From Gammaproteobacteria bacterium (GTDB taxonomy: Bacteria > Pseudomonadota > Gammaproteobacteria > Eutrophobiales > Eutrophobiaceae), in assembly GCA_028819495.1 (NCBI GenBank), contig JAPPLI010000086.1, positions 1 to 64,000 on the forward strand: a DNA stretch of 64,000 nucleotides. The letters run 5' to 3'. Position numbers and translations under genes: made by a program. Within the stretch, counting starts at the first letter, position 1, and each line of letters opens with the position of its first letter. The notes beneath the pieces were generated by a model. The model was not told the DNA's origin, ran no database searches, and saw nothing but the letters and a program-made list of their open reading frames with translations. Below are positions 25,236-64,000 of the stretch, in pieces.

Positions 25236-25496
25236 ATGAAAACAGAGATTGTTATTCACGCCGCAGAGGAAGGTGGTTATTGGGCCGAGGTTACTTCGAT
25301 CCCCGGGTGTGTTACACAAGGGGATACTATTGAGGAATTGGCTTTCAATTTAAAAGAAGCTATCGACGGATGTTTGTCTGTTATGGCTGACAATGTGAAA
25401 ACCATCCTGGATCAGGGTTTACAGGAGACTGATTTTGAAGGCAATAAGCGGAAAGAGGTTGTGTTATCTTCTCCGGCAGAAAGGGTGGCAGCATAA
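25236..25496 (+). CDS. hicB: HicB-like antitoxin
   Basis: MKTEIVIHAAEEGGYWAEVTSIPGCVTQGDTIEELAFNLKEAIDGCL. Confidence 0.88.
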   Translation: MKTEIVIHAAEEGGYWAEVTSIPGCVTQGDTIEELAFNLKEAIDGCLSVMADNVKTILDQGLQETDFEGNKRKEVVLSSPAERVAA

Positions 25497-25641
25497 GCGT
25501 ACTACCAGCAGTCACCATATTTATTCAAAAAAGGGAGAGTATTACGCGATTTCGATACCAGTTCATGGCAGCAAATCTCTGAAGATTGGACTACAGGGAA
25601 AGATAATGAAGATAGCAGGCATTGAAGAATCTGAATTATAG
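25435..25641 (+). CDS. hicA: HicA-like mRNA interferase toxin, overlaps hicB out of frame
   Basis: MKAISGKRLCYLLRQKGWQHKRTTSSHHIYSKKGEYYAISIPVHGSKSLKIGLQGKIMKIAGI. Confidence 0.9.
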   Translation: MKAISGKRLCYLLRQKGWQHKRTTSSHHIYSKKGEYYAISIPVHGSKSLKIGLQGKIMKIAGIEESEL

Positions 25642-56228: not shown

Positions 56229-56474
56229 ATGCATATTTCATTGACACCTGAACTCGAGGCAAGGGTCAAATCAAAGGTCGCAACGGGCATGTATAATAAT
56301 GCCAGCGAGGTCATCAGGGAGGCACTCAGATTTATGGACCAGAATGAAAAACTTCTCTACCTGCTTAAATCAGAACGGTTACGCTACGAGGTGGCGCAGG
56401 GAGCAATAGAGGCTGAGCAGGGTAATTTCAGCCCGCGCACCGTACAAGACATTCTTGATGATATGAATTCATAG
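56229..56474 (+). CDS. ParD-like (CopG/RHH) antitoxin
   Basis: MHISLTPELEARVKSKVATGMYNNASEVIREALRFMDQ. Confidence 0.9.
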   Translation: MHISLTPELEARVKSKVATGMYNNASEVIREALRFMDQNEKLLYLLKSERLRYEVAQGAIEAEQGNFSPRTVQDILDDMNS

Positions 56475-56486
56475 CCAGGGAAGGAT

Positions 56487-56783
56487 ATGATGGCCAGGTA
56501 CAGGCTCACACCGAAAGCCGACAGGGATTTGACACAAATCTGGCGCTATACCAACGAGAATTGGGGTAAATCCCAGGCAAATGAATACCTGCAACTTCTT
56601 GAAAACCGCTTTCTGATGCTTTTACGCCACCCGAAGTCAGGCAGGGCGCGTGATGAAATAAGGAGGGGATATCGTAGTCTGCCGGTTGAAAATCACGTCA
56701 TATTTTATCGAGTTAAAGATGCTGACATCGAAATTGTAAGAATTCTTCATCAAAGAATGGAAGTCAATCAACATGTATTTTAA
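56487..56783 (+). CDS. ParE-like toxin
   Basis: YRLTPKADRDLTQIWRYTNENWGKSQANEYLQLLENRF...HVIFYRVKDADIEIVRILHQRMEV. Confidence 0.93.
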   Translation: MMARYRLTPKADRDLTQIWRYTNENWGKSQANEYLQLLENRFLMLLRHPKSGRARDEIRRGYRSLPVENHVIFYRVKDADIEIVRILHQRMEVNQHVF

Positions 56784-56903
56784 TGTAATAAACATTCGGT
56801 TAGACGTCGGTTGAGAGAATGTTGGCAGGATCTCACCAAAAACTGCTTCGGTTCGGAAGTTGTACCTGGGGCGGTTCTCCAATATCATAAAGTTAACTTG
56901 TCA

Positions 56904-56994
56904 GGAGAGATGGCCGAGTGGCTTAAGGCGCACGCCTGGAAAGTGTGTATACGTTAATAGCGTATCGAGGGTTCGAATCCCTCTCTCTCCGCCA
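56904..56994 (+). tRNA. tRNA-Ser (GGA anticodon)
   Basis: ggagagatggccgagtggcttaaggcgcacgcctggaaagtgtgtatacgttaatagcgtatcgagggttcgaatccctctctctccgcca: class II tRNA, long variable arm, CCA encoded. Confidence 0.95.
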
Positions 56995-57198
56995 AAAGCG
57001 TTCCGCTCCACGGGGGAAAACCGTTGTAACTGACTGATAACAATAACAAATCAGCCAGCAATAAAACGTGACGAAATTACCTGAATCAGGCGGCGCTCAG
57101 TAGCCGCAGTTTCCGGCCCGAAGAAACGAGACGATTGTTTGGGATAATCGCTTCATAAATGTCTGTTATATGAAGCGAATAAGGGGTATAATCGCGTC

Positions 57199-58389
57199 AT
57201 GAATTGGATATGGGAGCATGACAACTGGCCGCGTTTTGCGCACGACGCCATGATATCAGGCGATCTTACCGCGAATGATTTCAGGCTGAGATCACAACAG
57301 TTACACGGAAACATTGAAGCCATGTCGGCGCACGACCAGTTAGACACACTGGCGGACCTGATGCTTTCTGAGGTATTGAATACCAACATGATTGAAGGCG
57401 AAAAACTGGACCGTGATTCCGTTCGCGCATCCCTGCTGGCATTACTTGGCGGCGGTTCAGTCGGATCAGTCGCCGGCCAGGATGATAAATCGTCAACAGC
57501 CGCAGAGTTCATAGTGGATGTCCGCAACCACTGGAACAGCCCCCTGGACGCATCCCTTTTGGGACGCTGGCAATCCATGATAATTGCAGATCAACCAGGC
57601 AATATCATTAGGAGAGGGGCGTTTCGCAGAGATACTGCCCCGATGCAGATCGTAAGTGGCGGGCCTGGGCGCTATCGGGTGCATTATGAGGCGCCGCCGG
57701 CCACGCGGGTTGATGAAGAGATGGCACGATTTCTTGACTGGTATAATACCACCAGGCCGGACGCGGATAATTCAGACGCGTCGGCAGGGCTGCTGAGAGC
57801 CGGCATTGCCCATGTATGGTTTGAAATGATACACCCGTTCGACGATGGTAACGGGCGGGTGGGGCGTGCCATTGTCGACCACGCCATATCACAGACCTTA
57901 GGTTATCCCGCGCTGACCTGTTTTTCAGCCGCCGTCCTGCAATCCAGGAAACGCTACTACCGGGAACTTGAATGGATCGGCCGCGGGAATAGTAATCTGG
58001 ATTCCTGGTTGCGTTTTTTTTCCGAGACCGTCAGACAGGCGCTGATGATCACACGGCAACAAGTAGAATTTGTGCTGAAAAAGACGCGGTTTTTCGATGC
58101 GTTTGGCGCTCGGTTGAATGAGCGCCAGAGCAAGATGGCTGCACGCGTGTTTGCAGAGGGGATCAAGGGTTTTGAAGGCGGTATAACGACCCGGAAATAC
58201 CAAGCGGTCACGAAATGTTCACGCGCAACCGCATTTCGTGACCTGAATGATATGCTCAAGGCGGGCATTCTGGTAGCGAGACCAGGGGCGGGGCGCAATG
58301 TCAGCTATGACCTGGTTTCGGTTACGATAGCCATGCAGGGGCTCAAGCAGGCCGGCCAAGCCGTGATTTTAACCGGCCCCCAACCGTAA
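57199..58389 (+). CDS. Fic family protein with DUF4172-like N-terminus
   Basis: MNWIWEHDNWPRF; inhibitory motif TNMIEGEKL; catalytic HPFDDGNGRVGR. Confidence 0.93.
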   Translation: MNWIWEHDNWPRFAHDAMISGDLTANDFRLRSQQLHGNIEAMSAHDQLDTLADLMLSEVLNTNMIEGEKLDRDSVRASLLALLGGGSVGSVAGQDDKSSTAAEFIVDVRNHWNSPLDASLLGRWQSMIIADQPGNIIRRGAFRRDTAPMQIVSGGPGRYRVHYEAPPATRVDEEMARFLDWYNTTRPDADNSDASAGLLRAGIAHVWFEMIHPFDDGNGRVGRAIVDHAISQTLGYPALTCFSAAVLQSRKRYYRELEWIGRGNSNLDSWLRFFSETVRQALMITRQQVEFVLKKTRFFDAFGARLNERQSKMAARVFAEGIKGFEGGITTRKYQAVTKCSRATAFRDLNDMLKAGILVARPGAGRNVSYDLVSVTIAMQGLKQAGQAVILTGPQP

Positions 58390-58576
58390 ACTCGAACACG
58401 GCGGCGGCGAGGTCACACTGCAGGATGTCAATCAGGCCGACCTGGCCAAGGTTAAGACTATCCTTAACGACTTTATGTTGAAACGCTGGGCCGAGCGTTG
58501 TGGCGTTGACTGTTCGGAGGAATGGAATCAAAGAGTCGGAATATTACTCGACCTTATAATTTTAGTTGTCATATGA
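58385..58576 (+). pseudogene. Possible C-terminal remnant of a DctP-type TRAP substrate-binding protein
   Basis: Open frame RKLEHGGGEVTLQDVNQADLAKVKTILNDFMLKRWAERCGVDCSEEWNQRVGILLDL; resembles DctP C-termini from memory, no start codon. Confidence 0.35.
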
Positions 58577-58594
58577 CAACTAAAGTGCTATGAT
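58561..58594 (+). promoter_or_regulatory. Sigma70-like promoter with overlapping 24-bp perfect palindrome (putative TA-type operator)
   Basis: TTTAGTTGTCATATGACAACTAAA (58561-58584); -35 TTGTCA 58566-58571, 17-nt spacer, -10 TATGAT 58589-58594. Confidence 0.7.
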
Positions 58595-58628
58595 TAACAC
58601 TCTGACTACAACCATTAGAGGAAGTAGA

Positions 58629-58682
58629 TGCAACACCCCTATAAGGAGATTGATGCGGTCATTCGCTATGCGAAATCAAGAT
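58629..58682 (+). pseudogene. Truncated small ORF MQHPYKEIDAVIRYAKSR*
   Basis: Starts downstream of the palindromic promoter and runs into an 82-bp direct repeat. Confidence 0.45.
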
Positions 58683-58741
58683 GACGAAGACTTTTGACTT
58701 TACATTGACATTTTCACTCTTGAGATACGGTTCCAGTCCGG
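58660..58741 (+). repeat. 82-bp direct repeat, left copy (truncated HTH gene start)
   Basis: cattcgctatgcgaaatcaagatgacgaagacttttgactttacattgacattttcactcttgagatacggttccagtccgg; two mismatches to 62104-62185. Confidence 0.95.
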
Positions 58742-58883
58742 TTTCGTGCCGTGTGCCTCAATGGGTCAGACCAGTTCAAAATGACAGAAGTTACTGATAA
58801 TAAGGGGGAACCAGCAAACAAGACCTGCTTTCAGTAGGCTTAAACTGCGCTTTTCACGCGCCAAAACATGGTTTTAAGGAGGT

Positions 58884-59459
58884 TTACAAATCAACCAATT
58901 CCTGTGCCCAGCCGGGTAAGGGATCAAGCATTTTTTCCAACAGTCCATCACGTATTGTCAAAACCCGTACAAAAGGGTTATCGGCACGCGAGTTATCCAG
59001 CAGGGTAACGTGGTCGCACAAGGGGATGACCGCCTTGATGTGCCGCAACAATCGCGGGATACGGGCTTCGACCTTTTCATCAGGCACATCATGACCGCCT
59101 TCTTCGACACGTTGCGCAACCCTGGCTTTATTGAGACTGGCAGGTTCCAGGTGAATCATTACCAGGATTATTTGATATCCCAAGGCTTTTGCCTTACCCG
59201 CGAAATCAACCTTGCCCGGGTGCGAAAAGACAGTTTCAAAACAGAAACTTCGCCCGTCATGGAGCAGGTTGTCACAGATCTGCTCGACAATCTGCATCGC
59301 CTGGTAACTGTGAACCTCCGGCGCCTCGGGAAACAACTCTTTCGCTATCAGGTCGGCATTCACAAGAGGGATCCCGAGAGGGGCCAGGCGAGTACGATAA
59401 AAAGTACTCTTGCCGGCGCCATTGCCGCCCGCCAGCAGCCAGAGTTGTTTAGCCTCCAT
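58884..59459 (-). CDS. Zeta-toxin-like P-loop kinase family protein
   Basis: LWLLAGGNGAGKSTFYRTRLAPLGIPLVNADLIAKELFPEAPEVHSYQA; SFCFETVFSHPGK. Confidence 0.85.
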   Translation of the reverse strand: MEAKQLWLLAGGNGAGKSTFYRTRLAPLGIPLVNADLIAKELFPEAPEVHSYQAMQIVEQICDNLLHDGRSFCFETVFSHPGKVDFAGKAKALGYQIILVMIHLEPASLNKARVAQRVEEGGHDVPDEKVEARIPRLLRHIKAVIPLCDHVTLLDNSRADNPFVRVLTIRDGLLEKMLDPLPGWAQELVDL

Positions 59460-59462
59460 TTC

Positions 59463-59879
59463 TCAATCAGCCTGTTCCGTCAGCGGCGTGAATACTCCGT
59501 CATGAAATTGACCGATGATCACCCGGCCATCCGGCAATACCTGCTCAAGCTGACCGGGATGAAGGCTTGAGCTCTGATAACGCACTGAACTGGTTGTCAC
59601 GGATTCCGTCAGCCTGCCGCTTTTTCGATCACGCTCAAGGTTGGAAAACACCTCATCAGGCGCAATAGTCTCTGGTTCTACGGGTTCTATCTTCAAATGA
59701 ACCAGGCCGGCGCTGATCTCAAGCAGGGTATCCTGATCAATTATTCTGGATAAACTGCGGCCGATACCGGCCCAGTATTCAATTTGCTCAGCAGCGCTGC
59801 GATGCTGACGTTGACCGGCCAGGGTCGCTGCCTGCATGAGGTCCACCTGCAGTCTGATGGGGGATGCGGCTTTAGGCAT
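59463..59879 (-). CDS. ParD-like antitoxin partner of the zeta-like kinase
   Basis: MPKAASPIRLQVDLMQAATLAGQRQHRSAAEQIEYWAGIGRSL; 3-nt gap to the kinase gene. Confidence 0.75.
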   Translation of the reverse strand: MPKAASPIRLQVDLMQAATLAGQRQHRSAAEQIEYWAGIGRSLSRIIDQDTLLEISAGLVHLKIEPVEPETIAPDEVFSNLERDRKSGRLTESVTTSSVRYQSSSLHPGQLEQVLPDGRVIIGQFHDGVFTPLTEQAD

Positions 59880-60314
59880 GGATCGTGGCCTCTTTTGGTA
59901 AGAAAATATGATTGTAGCAGAATGCTACGTGCAAGGAAAGGGCACTCAATGCCACTATCATTTTTGCGATGTGTTAAAACCAGTCAAGGCAAAAGCGTAC
60001 TTTTCAGACTGATGAGACAGAAAAGTAAATCCGCGGGGCCAGTATGTCCCACCAGTAATATTGCACGCTTCCTTGTGTAAGGCCATTCCGTGGCCTCCTT
60101 TATTACGCCTGATGTTAATCAAGTACAGGTATTAGTATCTGGCGTAGCAGATGACGGGTGGGTCCCGTGCAAGCGAGGACGCGCATCAGGCGGGTTAATT
60201 TTTATTACGGATTGGCGGCCAGGCGGATAATTTCAATATAAAATACTTGACATAAATATTATATAAAGGGGAATATACCCCCAATATCCGCAAATATTGA
60301 CAAGTTATTGGCTT

Positions 60315-61118
60315 ATGGACACTGGCACTTTTTTACAGACGCACCGAGTCTTCAACCTCGATGAAGCCGCACGGGTATTAGCGCCGCCCGGCGGGCGTAA
60401 GGCGACATTGGAGCGCCTGAAATACACAGCTGCACGAAACAAGCTGAAGAAGCTCACACGGGGGGTCTATGCTTCGGTGCCGCCGGGGGTGGATGCGGCC
60501 AAATTTCAGCCGGATCGTTTCCTTGTGGCGGTGGCGATGCGACCTGACGCGGTCTTTTCCCATCATTCGGCGCTTGAACTACTGGGTGCTGCGCATTCCG
60601 AATGGCGGGAATGCACCGCGTACAGCGCCAGGCGTTCACAGTCGTTCGATCTGGATGGCCTTGAACTGCGCTTCCTGTCCCACCCGCAATCACTGGTGCG
60701 CTATCGGGCTCTTGATCGGGGCATACGCTCCGTCCACCGGCTCGATCGTGAATTACGGGTTACCGGACCCGAACGTACACTGATCGATGGTTTCCGCCGG
60801 ACGGACCTGGTGGGCGGGCTTGCGGAGTTTGTCGAGTCGGCGGCGGGATTTCCTGTTCTGGAGTTGCCATTGTTGTTTGAGCTTCTGGATGTTTTCGGAC
60901 AAAAGGTGTTGTGGGCAGCGGCCGGCTGGTTCCTTGAGCTGTATCGAAAGACCTTTTATGTCAGCGATGATGATCTTGCATTAATAGAAAAATACGTCCC
61001 AAAGGCGCCGCTTTATCTTGCCAGGGATCAACGCGGCGGCGTACTGGTGCGGCGATGGAATCTGATCGTCCCGGACGCGCTGCTGGAGGGCATGGAGCCG
61101 GATGAATCTCAGCGCTGA
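60315..61118 (+). CDS. AbiEi-type antitoxin (type IV TA)
   Basis: wHTH LKKLTRGVYASVPPG, FQPDRFLVAVAMRPDAVFSHHSALELLGAA; ATG at 60315. Confidence 0.85.
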   Translation: MDTGTFLQTHRVFNLDEAARVLAPPGGRKATLERLKYTAARNKLKKLTRGVYASVPPGVDAAKFQPDRFLVAVAMRPDAVFSHHSALELLGAAHSEWRECTAYSARRSQSFDLDGLELRFLSHPQSLVRYRALDRGIRSVHRLDRELRVTGPERTLIDGFRRTDLVGGLAEFVESAAGFPVLELPLLFELLDVFGQKVLWAAAGWFLELYRKTFYVSDDDLALIEKYVPKAPLYLARDQRGGVLVRRWNLIVPDALLEGMEPDESQR

Positions 61119-62058
61119 ACTCATTGAAGGACTCGCGACGGAGACTGGTTTCCGTGCGGAGACACTGGAAAAGGTGATCCGCCTGGGTGAATTCGCCGCA
61201 GACGTTGGGCGTCATCCGTTGCTATCACGTGTATTGATATTGAAAGGTGGTACGGCATTGAATCTGTTGTTCGGCCCCCCGGCCCGGCTTTCGGTTGATC
61301 TGGATTTCAATTATATTGGGCAGGAAGATCCGGCGGGTATGCAAGCTGATCGCACCGAGGTTGAACGGGCCCTCGCGAATATCGGAGAGGGTCAGGGCTA
61401 CAGGGTACAGCAATCGCGCGATGCCCATGCCGGACGGAAGTTCTATCTCACCTACACAAGTTCGACCAGTACGCCAGACCGTATTGAGATAGATCCAAAC
61501 TTTTTGTTTCGCATACCACTGGGTAAAGTCACAACACGGCCGCTCTGGCAGCCACCGGGAATTGTATACCCGGAAATTCGGGTCGTGCCTATGGAAGAGC
61601 TGTTCGCCGGAAAACTGCGTGCGACCCTGGCTCGGGCGATGCCGCGTGATCTATTCGATACCATTCGATTGCCCGAATACGGATCGGAAATCTGGGGGAG
61701 TCTGCGAATGCGCCGAATTCATGTGGCGCTGGCGGTTACGCTGCCGCTTCCGCTTTATCAATATGGACGGGATCGCTTTGAGCGTGTTACCGATAGAAGC
61801 ACTGAGGAACAGCTTGTACCGATGCTTCAAGGTAATGAGCGGCCAGTTGCAAGTGAATTGAAGGAACAGGCATGGTCGGTTATGGAACCGCTGGTTACGC
61901 TTGAAGAGACTGAGCGGGAATACATTGACCGAGCGCATGCCGGTGAACTGTCGCCTGAGTTGCTGTTTCCTGACGACGAAGAAATGGTAAGTCGGTTGGC
62001 GCGATCTCCGGCATTATTATGGAAAATCAAAAATGTGAGACGGCATGTTTCCAGATGA
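61102..62058 (+). CDS. AbiEii/AbiGii nucleotidyltransferase toxin
   Basis: LSRVLILKGGTALNLLFGPPARLSVDLDFNYIG nucleotidyltransferase motif; overlaps AbiEi by 17 nt. Confidence 0.93.
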   Translation: MNLSAELIEGLATETGFRAETLEKVIRLGEFAADVGRHPLLSRVLILKGGTALNLLFGPPARLSVDLDFNYIGQEDPAGMQADRTEVERALANIGEGQGYRVQQSRDAHAGRKFYLTYTSSTSTPDRIEIDPNFLFRIPLGKVTTRPLWQPPGIVYPEIRVVPMEELFAGKLRATLARAMPRDLFDTIRLPEYGSEIWGSLRMRRIHVALAVTLPLPLYQYGRDRFERVTDRSTEEQLVPMLQGNERPVASELKEQAWSVMEPLVTLEETEREYIDRAHAGELSPELLFPDDEEMVSRLARSPALLWKIKNVRRHVSR

Positions 62059-62103
62059 TTCCAGCCAGAGATGTACAACATTTATCATGCTGTCTTATTG
62101 CCA

Positions 62104-62185
62104 CATTCGCTATGCGAAATCAAGATGACGAAGACTTTTGACTTTACATTGACATTTTCACTCTCGAGATACGGTTCCAATCCGG
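62104..62185 (+). repeat. 82-bp direct repeat, right copy (start of intact HTH gene)
   Basis: Two mismatches to 58660-58741. Confidence 0.95.
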
Positions 62186-62637
62186 AAAATTACCTGGAAG
62201 CGCTATTCGAAGCGGGTTGTGATGACGCAATAGTTGGAACCGGAATACCGGGTTCTATTGCACTGAATTTTTCACGTGGCGCAAAATCAGCAGAAGATGC
62301 AATTCAGCGAGCTGTACGTGACGTCCGCAAGGCAATTCCCGATGCGGAGTTGTTGGAATTAAAACCCGACCTGGTCGGCATCTCCGATATAGCCGGATTA
62401 CTCGGTTGTTCGCGTCAGAACATTCGGAAACTGACCACGAAAGGCAGTTTAAATTTCCCCAAACCGACTGTTTCCGGTAGCGTCCCGCTCTGGCATTTCT
62501 ATGAAGTGGCAAACTGGCTGATCAGGAACTCCAGGATAAAGATTAAACCAAAGGAAGAGGATGTTGAGATCGCGAAAGTAACCTTTCAGAAAAATCTGGA
62601 GGTTCAAGGAATTCGTTATCGGGCACTCGCAAATTGA
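62125..62637 (+). CDS. HTH DNA-binding protein (excisionase/MerR-like HTH, HicB-like N-terminus possible)
   Basis: MTKTFDFTLTFSLSRYGSNPENYLEALFEAGCDDAIVGTG...DLVGISDIAGLLGCSRQNIRKLTTKG. Confidence 0.8.
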   Translation: MTKTFDFTLTFSLSRYGSNPENYLEALFEAGCDDAIVGTGIPGSIALNFSRGAKSAEDAIQRAVRDVRKAIPDAELLELKPDLVGISDIAGLLGCSRQNIRKLTTKGSLNFPKPTVSGSVPLWHFYEVANWLIRNSRIKIKPKEEDVEIAKVTFQKNLEVQGIRYRALAN

Positions 62638-62829
62638 CAATGAATTCCAGGGACACTGACTTTATTTTAGTCAAGACCATTCTAAAATATCCTTTATTTT
62701 AGTCATGTACGGCAGCTGGCGCCCCATTTCGACCTGATCACCATTATTCGCAAAAATACCATATATATTGCAAATCCTTAACAAATATGCTACAGTTTTT
62801 GTTATTTTCGGCAAAAACTCTGGCAAATA

Positions 62830-64000
62830 ATGGCAAATCTCCTCCTGGTTACCGATGTCTCCACGCGTACGGCCCTGCAAAGGCGTTATCGCCGCGGTGA
62901 ACTGACGCGGGTGCGCAATGGTGTCTATGTGGATAGCCATGACCCTGCTGAGATAGTGAAGGTTCTAAGCACGGAGTGGGTGGCGATTGCCAATTTTCTC
63001 TTCGCCGATCCGGTTGCTGTTTACAGAACAGCATTTGAACTCGGCCCCGTCAACAACCGCGTCTATTTGATGGTGGCCCGGGGCAAACGCCGTAGCGTCA
63101 CTGTCGGCTCGCTGCAACTGAGCATTGAAGCCGGCGACGTGGAACATGGCATCGAGCCCGCCGGCCCGGCGATGCGGCGCAGCAATGTGCCGCGGCAACT
63201 GCTGGAAAATCTCACGTCGGTACGTACTGAAAAAGGCTTTAAGAAGAAATTGGGGCGAGCGTGGGTGGAGGAACAATTACTGAATGAAGTGGCTGTTCGC
63301 GGTGAAGCCGGCATAAACCGGCTGAGAGACGAAGCCGCCGCTTTGGCGCCATTGCTTGGTATGGAGGGGCAACAGCAACAACTCAATAAAATGGTATCAG
63401 CCATATTAAAGACCCATCCGATGGATGGTGTCTTAACGACACGCGCGGGTTACGCTCATGCGCTGGGCAAGCCCTTCGACCGGGAAAGGCTCGAGCGTTT
63501 TTCGGCGTTATCAAGCTACCTCAATAAACTCGATTTAAGTGAATCCGCCTACACCTATGATAATGCCGGTTGGCGCAATCTTGCTTTCTTTGAAAGTTAT
63601 TTCTCAAATTATATCGAGGGGACACAATTTACTATTGAAGAAGCCGAAGATATCGTCACCACCGGCCGGGTGCTGTATCAACGACATGAAGACAGCCATG
63701 ATTTGTTGTCCCATATTGACATAACGCGTGACCATGCTGAAATGACCCGTACCCCTTCTACCGCCGACAGTTTGCTCGACATACTTAAATCACGGCACGG
63801 TATCTTGCTGGCGCAACGTCCCGACAAACGGCCGGGTCAATTCAAGAACGCGCCCAATCAGGCCGGCACGACGTATTTTGTCCTGCCGGAACAGGTTGAG
63901 GGCACCCTGTTACAGGGGTTTGACTTATACAGGCACGTGAAGGCCGGTATCAAACGCGCATTATTCATGCATTTTCTCGTAGCTGAAGTACATCCATTCA
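62830..64000 (+). CDS. Fic family protein with AbiEi-like wHTH N-terminal domain, truncated by window end
   Basis: Open frame of 390 codons not in the track: MANLLLVTDVSTRTALQRRYRRGELTRVRNGVYVDSHD...SYFSNYIEGTQFTIEEAE...DILKSRHGILLAQRPDKRPGQFKNAPNQAGTTYFVLPEQVEGTLLQGFDLY...FLVAEVHPF. Confidence 0.85.
   Translation, partial: MANLLLVTDVSTRTALQRRYRRGELTRVRNGVYVDSHDPAEIVKVLSTEWVAIANFLFADPVAVYRTAFELGPVNNRVYLMVARGKRRSVTVGSLQLSIEAGDVEHGIEPAGPAMRRSNVPRQLLENLTSVRTEKGFKKKLGRAWVEEQLLNEVAVRGEAGINRLRDEAAALAPLLGMEGQQQQLNKMVSAILKTHPMDGVLTTRAGYAHALGKPFDRERLERFSALSSYLNKLDLSESAYTYDNAGWRNLAFFESYFSNYIEGTQFTIEEAEDIVTTGRVLYQRHEDSHDLLSHIDITRDHAEMTRTPSTADSLLDILKSRHGILLAQRPDKRPGQFKNAPNQAGTTYFVLPEQVEGTLLQGFDLYRHVKAGIKRALFMHFLVAEVHPF

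Follow-up and report, generated by a model that had tools for sequence, protein, structure and literature searches.

Sequence anatomy of a PDC-M06-type operon that has probably lost its toxin gene and was later split by inserted toxin-antitoxin units

In HicAB toxin-antitoxin (TA) systems a small toxin gene comes first, the gene of a DNA-binding antitoxin second, and a palindromic site serves for autorepression; the HicA toxins have the alpha-beta-beta-beta-alpha topology of a double-stranded RNA-binding domain (dsRBD) with a conserved histidine (PMC10865869). By analogy, a similar layout can be read in PDC-M06, a candidate defence system of PADLOC-DB 2.0 in which a small gene (PDC-M06A, here A) precedes the gene of a helix-turn-helix (HTH) protein (PDC-M06B, here B). 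PADLOC assigns PDC-M06 no mechanism, and no study naming it was found in the open-access literature searched. A homologous pair, CYRAN_51/CYRAN_50 of the phage-plasmid Cyrano from Escherichia coli LF82, has already been annotated as a HicA toxin and a putative HicB antitoxin, and the two genes are transcribed 30x and 14x over background in the lysogen (PMC9928086). Antitoxins retained after loss of their toxin are likewise known as orphans from Klebsiella and E. coli (PMC7192599, PMC10790755). Here we analyze a PDC-M06-type locus in a 64,000-nucleotide stretch of DNA, hereafter the window (contig JAPPLI010000086.1, positions 1 to 64,000), from a gammaproteobacterial draft genome of 221 contigs with an estimated contamination of ~6% (GCA_028819495.1). 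The locus is most probably a decayed, toxin-first TA operon of PDC-M06 type which was later split. It differs from PDC-M06 as defined in that A is cut to 18 codons and B is parted from the operator, and from Cyrano in that the phage-plasmid pair is intact and carries a related operator form, GTTGACnnnnGTCAAC, a form found in part of the family. What sets the locus apart from the Klebsiella and E. coli orphans is that the lesion, its precedence over the insertion and the stranding of the operator are all legible base by base.

A first-pass annotation, made from the letters alone, had described a palindrome, a promoter, an 18-codon remnant, 82-bp repeats and zeta/AbiE genes at this locus, and each of these lies where it had been placed. 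The operator TTTAGTTGTCATATGACAACTAAA is a perfect 24-bp palindrome at 58561–58584 (no strand assigned); with up to 3 mismatches allowed, nothing else in the window matches it and 100 shuffles give 0 matches, and the 4.97 Mb of the genome contain its core GTTGTCANNTGACAAC a single time, at 58565. A promoter-like TTGTCA-17-TATGAT overlaps it on the plus strand (58566–58594, a consensus match only), with its -35 element within the palindrome. The remnant of A, the likely toxin gene, occupies 58628–58684 on the plus strand, where an ATG at 58628 opens 18 codons (MQHPYKEIDAVIRYAKSR) that end in a TGA at the scar of a deletion; the 7-bp junction of this deletion, AATCAAG, lies at 58674–58680 (plus strand), and the same scar is found at 62118–62124. 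The left copy of the direct repeat (58660–58741, plus strand) comprises the end of the remnant and the first ~20 HTH codons, belonging to a 21-codon HTH fragment at 58681–58743, while the right copy (62104–62185, plus strand) continues into an intact HTH gene. The copies are identical at 80/82 positions, including an exact shared stretch of 61 nt, and lie in the same orientation at a spacing of 3444. The intact gene (62125–62637, plus strand, 170 aa) starts 67 bp after AbiEii and matches PADLOC PDC-M06B at 8.6e-58 over residues 4–165; it is likely an orphaned antitoxin and repressor. PDC-M06 in the window is accordingly incomplete, its A remnant lying 3.4 kb from intact B, and 3.5 kb now separate the operator and promoter from the antitoxin-like gene that survives. 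When the window was scanned against Rfam only a tRNA matched, which means that the repeats correspond to no known RNA; the 125-nt repeat was folded and its stability was not unusual. A search of viral contigs returned no close relative.

The uninterrupted form of the operon was found among related genomes, 6/40 of which contain a match to the HTH protein. In one of the same genus (G005), whose HTH protein shares 92% amino acid identity with that of the window, the same palindrome and promoter precede an intact 82-aa gene starting MQHPYKEINAVIRYAKSRGW (L005:1247–1495), with the HTH gene a few bases on, and both halves are matched by PADLOC (PDC-M06A 8e-34, PDC-M06B 1e-57). An unbroken order of palindrome, MQHPYKEI gene and MTKTFDFT gene, as predicted by the first-pass annotation, is thus present in G005 and in many other taxa. 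DNA homology between the window and G005 extends over the operon only (58555–62627 of the window, leaving out the insert), which indicates that the operon is a self-contained unit in differing surroundings. Further, G005 carries AATCAAG twice, at L005:1293 and 1494, 201 bp apart, and dropping one AATCAAG together with the intervening DNA reproduces the scar of the window exactly, so that the proposed loss of the first gene can be seen against G005 as a 201-bp deletion between 7-bp repeats. Since the scar is present in both 82-bp copies, the deletion of the small gene preceded the insertion. Both mismatches between the copies lie in the left one; the right agrees with G005 at both sites, and hence the changes are in the left remnant. 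This comparison establishes, at the level of sequence, the deletion, the insertion and their order. The HTH gene, with dN ~0.043, dS ~0.177 and dN/dS ~0.24 between window and G005, is under purifying selection as averaged over both branches, which is no proof of constraint after it was orphaned. The earlier description of an HTH operon holds as far as its two genes are concerned but requires amendment, as the operon appears itself to be of TA type and the lost gene its likely toxin.

To this reading the family as a whole adds a recurrent pattern. One genome-collection scan yielded 80 loci from several bacterial phyla. As in type II TA systems, whose two genes often overlap, the genes are adjacent and co-oriented in 63/80 loci, where B comes immediately after an intact A (not in the window itself). 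In the other 17/80 A was not found or bears a frameshift, a stop, a truncation or an internal deletion. The frame of B is open in 80/80, and B has 161 aa or more in every locus with intact A. Conversely, when 369 genomes of the class were searched with each protein, no near-full A without an adjacent B was found. A toxin that is not tolerated without its antitoxin is thereby matched as a genomic pattern only, and such one-sided decay is what would be expected if the HTH protein served as antitoxin to a toxic small protein. Two Alloalcanivorax loci (L068, L071) share the type of lesion seen in the window, the middle of A being deleted and promoter, operator, start and antitoxin retained, and on plasmids pAQ7 (L234) and that of Janthinobacterium lividum (L235) unannotated, broken PDC-M06A pseudogenes stand directly upstream of intact HTH genes. 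Cumulatively, these loci suggest from their sequences that in this little-studied family the toxin is repeatedly lost and the antitoxin kept. Reading the in-frame TGA stops of L042 and L058 as selenocysteine was considered and rejected, as the lesions differ in type and not every stop is a TGA. As a separate observation, Alloalcanivorax gelatiniphagus NZ_VCQT01000022 (L068, L070) carries two PDC-M06 operons at a distance of ~10 kb; one is intact, and in the other A has an internal deletion.

The operator is likewise a family trait. With up to 2 mismatches, GTTGTCANNTGACAAC lies within 120 nt upstream of A in 50/63 intact loci, a conserved operator at the promoter of the kind known from type II TA operons; it was found in 0/3150 shuffled sequences and is absent inside B, and this first operator form is still present in 10/17 loci without intact A. 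A motif so widespread at the same place strongly suggests that the operon is autoregulated. No palindrome lies upstream of the present position of orphan B, and as the operator occurs only once in the genome, orphan B is left without a visible second target; a genome-wide regulon of orphan B was dismissed on the same ground.

Structural models are consistent with a HicA-like A and with an antitoxin of a different kind. A is predicted to fold as alpha-beta-beta-beta-alpha (pLDDT, the predicted local distance difference test, 83), and in a comparison of its profile with HicA proteins of related genomes the invariant His28 aligned with the GSH motif of HicA (P 5e-4, probability 32%), whereas three control comparisons gave P 0.08–0.2. 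A matched a PADLOC HicA-like profile at E 0.03 and did not match Pfam HicA (PF07927). Judged from the model, A likely works like HicA, while its identity as a HicA is not established. The AlphaFold2 model of B (pLDDT 94.7) begins with a ferredoxin-like domain, continues with an HTH and ends in a long helix; the N domain is modelled as beta-alpha-beta-beta-alpha-beta, with best PDB matches to ACT/ferredoxin-like structures. Homology of B to HicB, which has a partial RNase H fold, was rejected in view of a profile probability of 0.7% and the ferredoxin-like model. PDC-M06 thus departs from HicAB in the missing Pfam HicA match and in the fold of its antitoxin, and also in several conserved cysteines and a SIWSTP motif. 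A sequence search of the PDB with both proteins gave nothing significant. A genuine HicB/HicA pair lies elsewhere in the window, formed by a HicB-like open reading frame (ORF) at 25236–25496 and a HicA at 25435–25641 (Pfam HicA 1e-11 at 25450–25623), and the genome has 10 HicA matches.

Considering that B resembles the PHROG family 'excisionase and transcriptional regulator' (8e-26) and, weakly, TIGR01764, and that it is located on SSU5-type phage-plasmids, A and the HTH protein could instead form a regulatory or excision pair of phage or plasmid type, from which A was lost as dispensable rather than toxic. We regard this as unlikely: the four annotated records read show no integrase next to the pair, A combines a HicA-like topology with a conserved histidine in register, and the repeated loss of A alone, with intact A never seen without B, suits a toxin. 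Weighing against a TA operon akin to HicAB are the lack of a HicB domain in B and the lack of a significant PDB match for A in Foldseek. The asymmetry of gene loss is, moreover, partly conditioned by a search led by B, the sample led by A being small (12 intact A genes), and the assembly is a draft that may be chimeric at the repeat.

In a chimera of this kind the 82-bp repeat would have joined an uninterrupted operon with deleted A to a separate zeta/AbiE element, for instance from another strain. The 221 contigs and the ~6% contamination are compatible with such an error, as is the exact 61-nt stretch shared by the copies, yet each copy has distinct single-nucleotide differences, and at the outer junctions, 58741 and 62104, gene B or A is genuinely interrupted, for which a rearranged molecule is required in any case; we therefore consider a chimera quite improbable. 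That the repeats are active, with homologous recombination between them releasing the 3.4-kb module and rejoining the operator to B as a switch, is possible in principle, as they are direct, equally oriented and at 82 bp long enough for RecA, but is unsupported and very unlikely, since excision would give back only an operon with deleted A, drift at the two mismatch sites is confined to the left copy (the copies are thus not being homogenised), and no other genome was found with the module at this place.

The DNA between the repeats had been taken by the first-pass annotation for a toxin cassette inserted later; the timing agrees with the scar in both copies, and the single cassette does not agree with the composition of the insert. 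Next to the left repeat lies a fragment resembling a miniature inverted-repeat transposable element (MITE), at 58762–58881 (no strand assigned; BLAST match 58757–58881), derived from a dispersed repeat of ~310 bp with ends GGGGTCAGACC; other copies occur in this genome and in congeners, and that of the window is truncated exactly where the zeta unit starts. On the minus strand follow a zeta-like P-loop kinase toxin (58884–59459, Pfam Zeta_toxin 9.4e-12) and its ParD_like antitoxin (59463–59879, Pfam ParD_like 2.7e-8), a unit (58883–59943) that recurs by itself in G005, G002 and G004 at 75–82%. On the plus strand lie the AbiEi antitoxin/regulator (60318–61118, PADLOC 3.8e-63) and the AbiEii nucleotidyltransferase toxin (61102–62058, Pfam AbiEii 1.8e-26, PADLOC 5.8e-83), which together form an AbiE (type IV TA) operon, the start of abiEii overlapping abiEi; for this part there was no DNA match among the relatives searched. 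Because it holds a truncated dispersed repeat and a zeta unit that stands alone in three congeners, the insert is composite rather than one cassette, made up by its sequence of a MITE fragment, a zeta-like TA unit and AbiE. No transposase was recognised between the repeats, where all gene-sized ORFs belong to the two TA units, and with a MITE-like fragment at one side only the insert does not qualify as a transposon or composite transposon; 82 bp also far exceeds usual target duplications. As to the dispersed repeat, it is genus-wide, with ends GGGGTCAGACC / GGGTCGGACC (copies at L025 ~1314–1625 and L028 ~1313–1624), the window holding a truncated copy only.

Taken as a decayed TA operon, the locus would have had the following history. 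In the intact form, seen in G005 and about 60 other loci, an operator/promoter precedes gene A and an overlapping or adjacent gene B. A would be a HicA-like toxin of dsRBD fold, probably an RNase with the invariant histidine as catalytic residue, and B would neutralise A and, through its HTH, act at GTTGTCAnnTGACAAC over the -35 element to repress the operon. The 201-bp deletion between the two AATCAAG repeats, which took most of A, would have left B without a toxin to neutralise. Later, a 3.36-kb segment with the truncated MITE, the zeta-like TA and the AbiE TA came to lie inside gene B. This event duplicated 82 bp and cut off operator, promoter and remnant on the upstream side, and it put B behind abiEi-abiEii, possibly as a third gene. 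A promoter scan of the region before orphan B gave no plus-strand site, and transcription of B may come from the AbiE operon. How the TA pair works biochemically and whether B is expressed are what we infer from these arrangements.

The ferredoxin-like N domain of PDC-M06B also exists as a stand-alone protein of 76–84 aa. Copies lie directly after a RlaP nucleotidyltransferase in this genome (G000:C42:46425–46652; L010:1471–1701, minus strand) and in G006 (L009:692–922), after AbiEi-AbiEii in the unrelated genome G230 (L151:1498–1740), with the gene order of the window, and near a contig end (L167:243–497). Based on the gene order in G230 and the RlaP-linked copies, one may speculate that this domain is an exchangeable antitoxin module for unrelated toxins (HicA-like RNases, nucleotidyltransferases) and that the AbiE operon has recaptured the orphan, as its third gene, an idea to which we give little weight. 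That stand-alone N-domain proteins form a common family was rejected; they are rare, and most hits of a phylum search are full-length B genes.

The locus stands in a dense run of TA- and defence-type genes (56229–64000), with ParDE at 56229–56783, tRNA-Ser(GGA) at 56904–56994, Fic at 57199–58389 and a second Fic-like gene from 62830.

The HicA/HicB annotation of the phage homologue was already known; new here is a testable TA reading of PDC-M06, which thereby gains a concrete mechanistic hypothesis in which a HicA-like toxin is paired with an antitoxin whose fold is unlike HicB, and distant bacteria share one operator motif. Independent toxin deletions elsewhere would permit a statistical test of directional toxin loss. 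The window itself may be regarded as an unusually readable fossil of TA decay, in which a microhomology deletion removed the likely toxin, the antitoxin and operator were left behind, and a second TA insertion followed.

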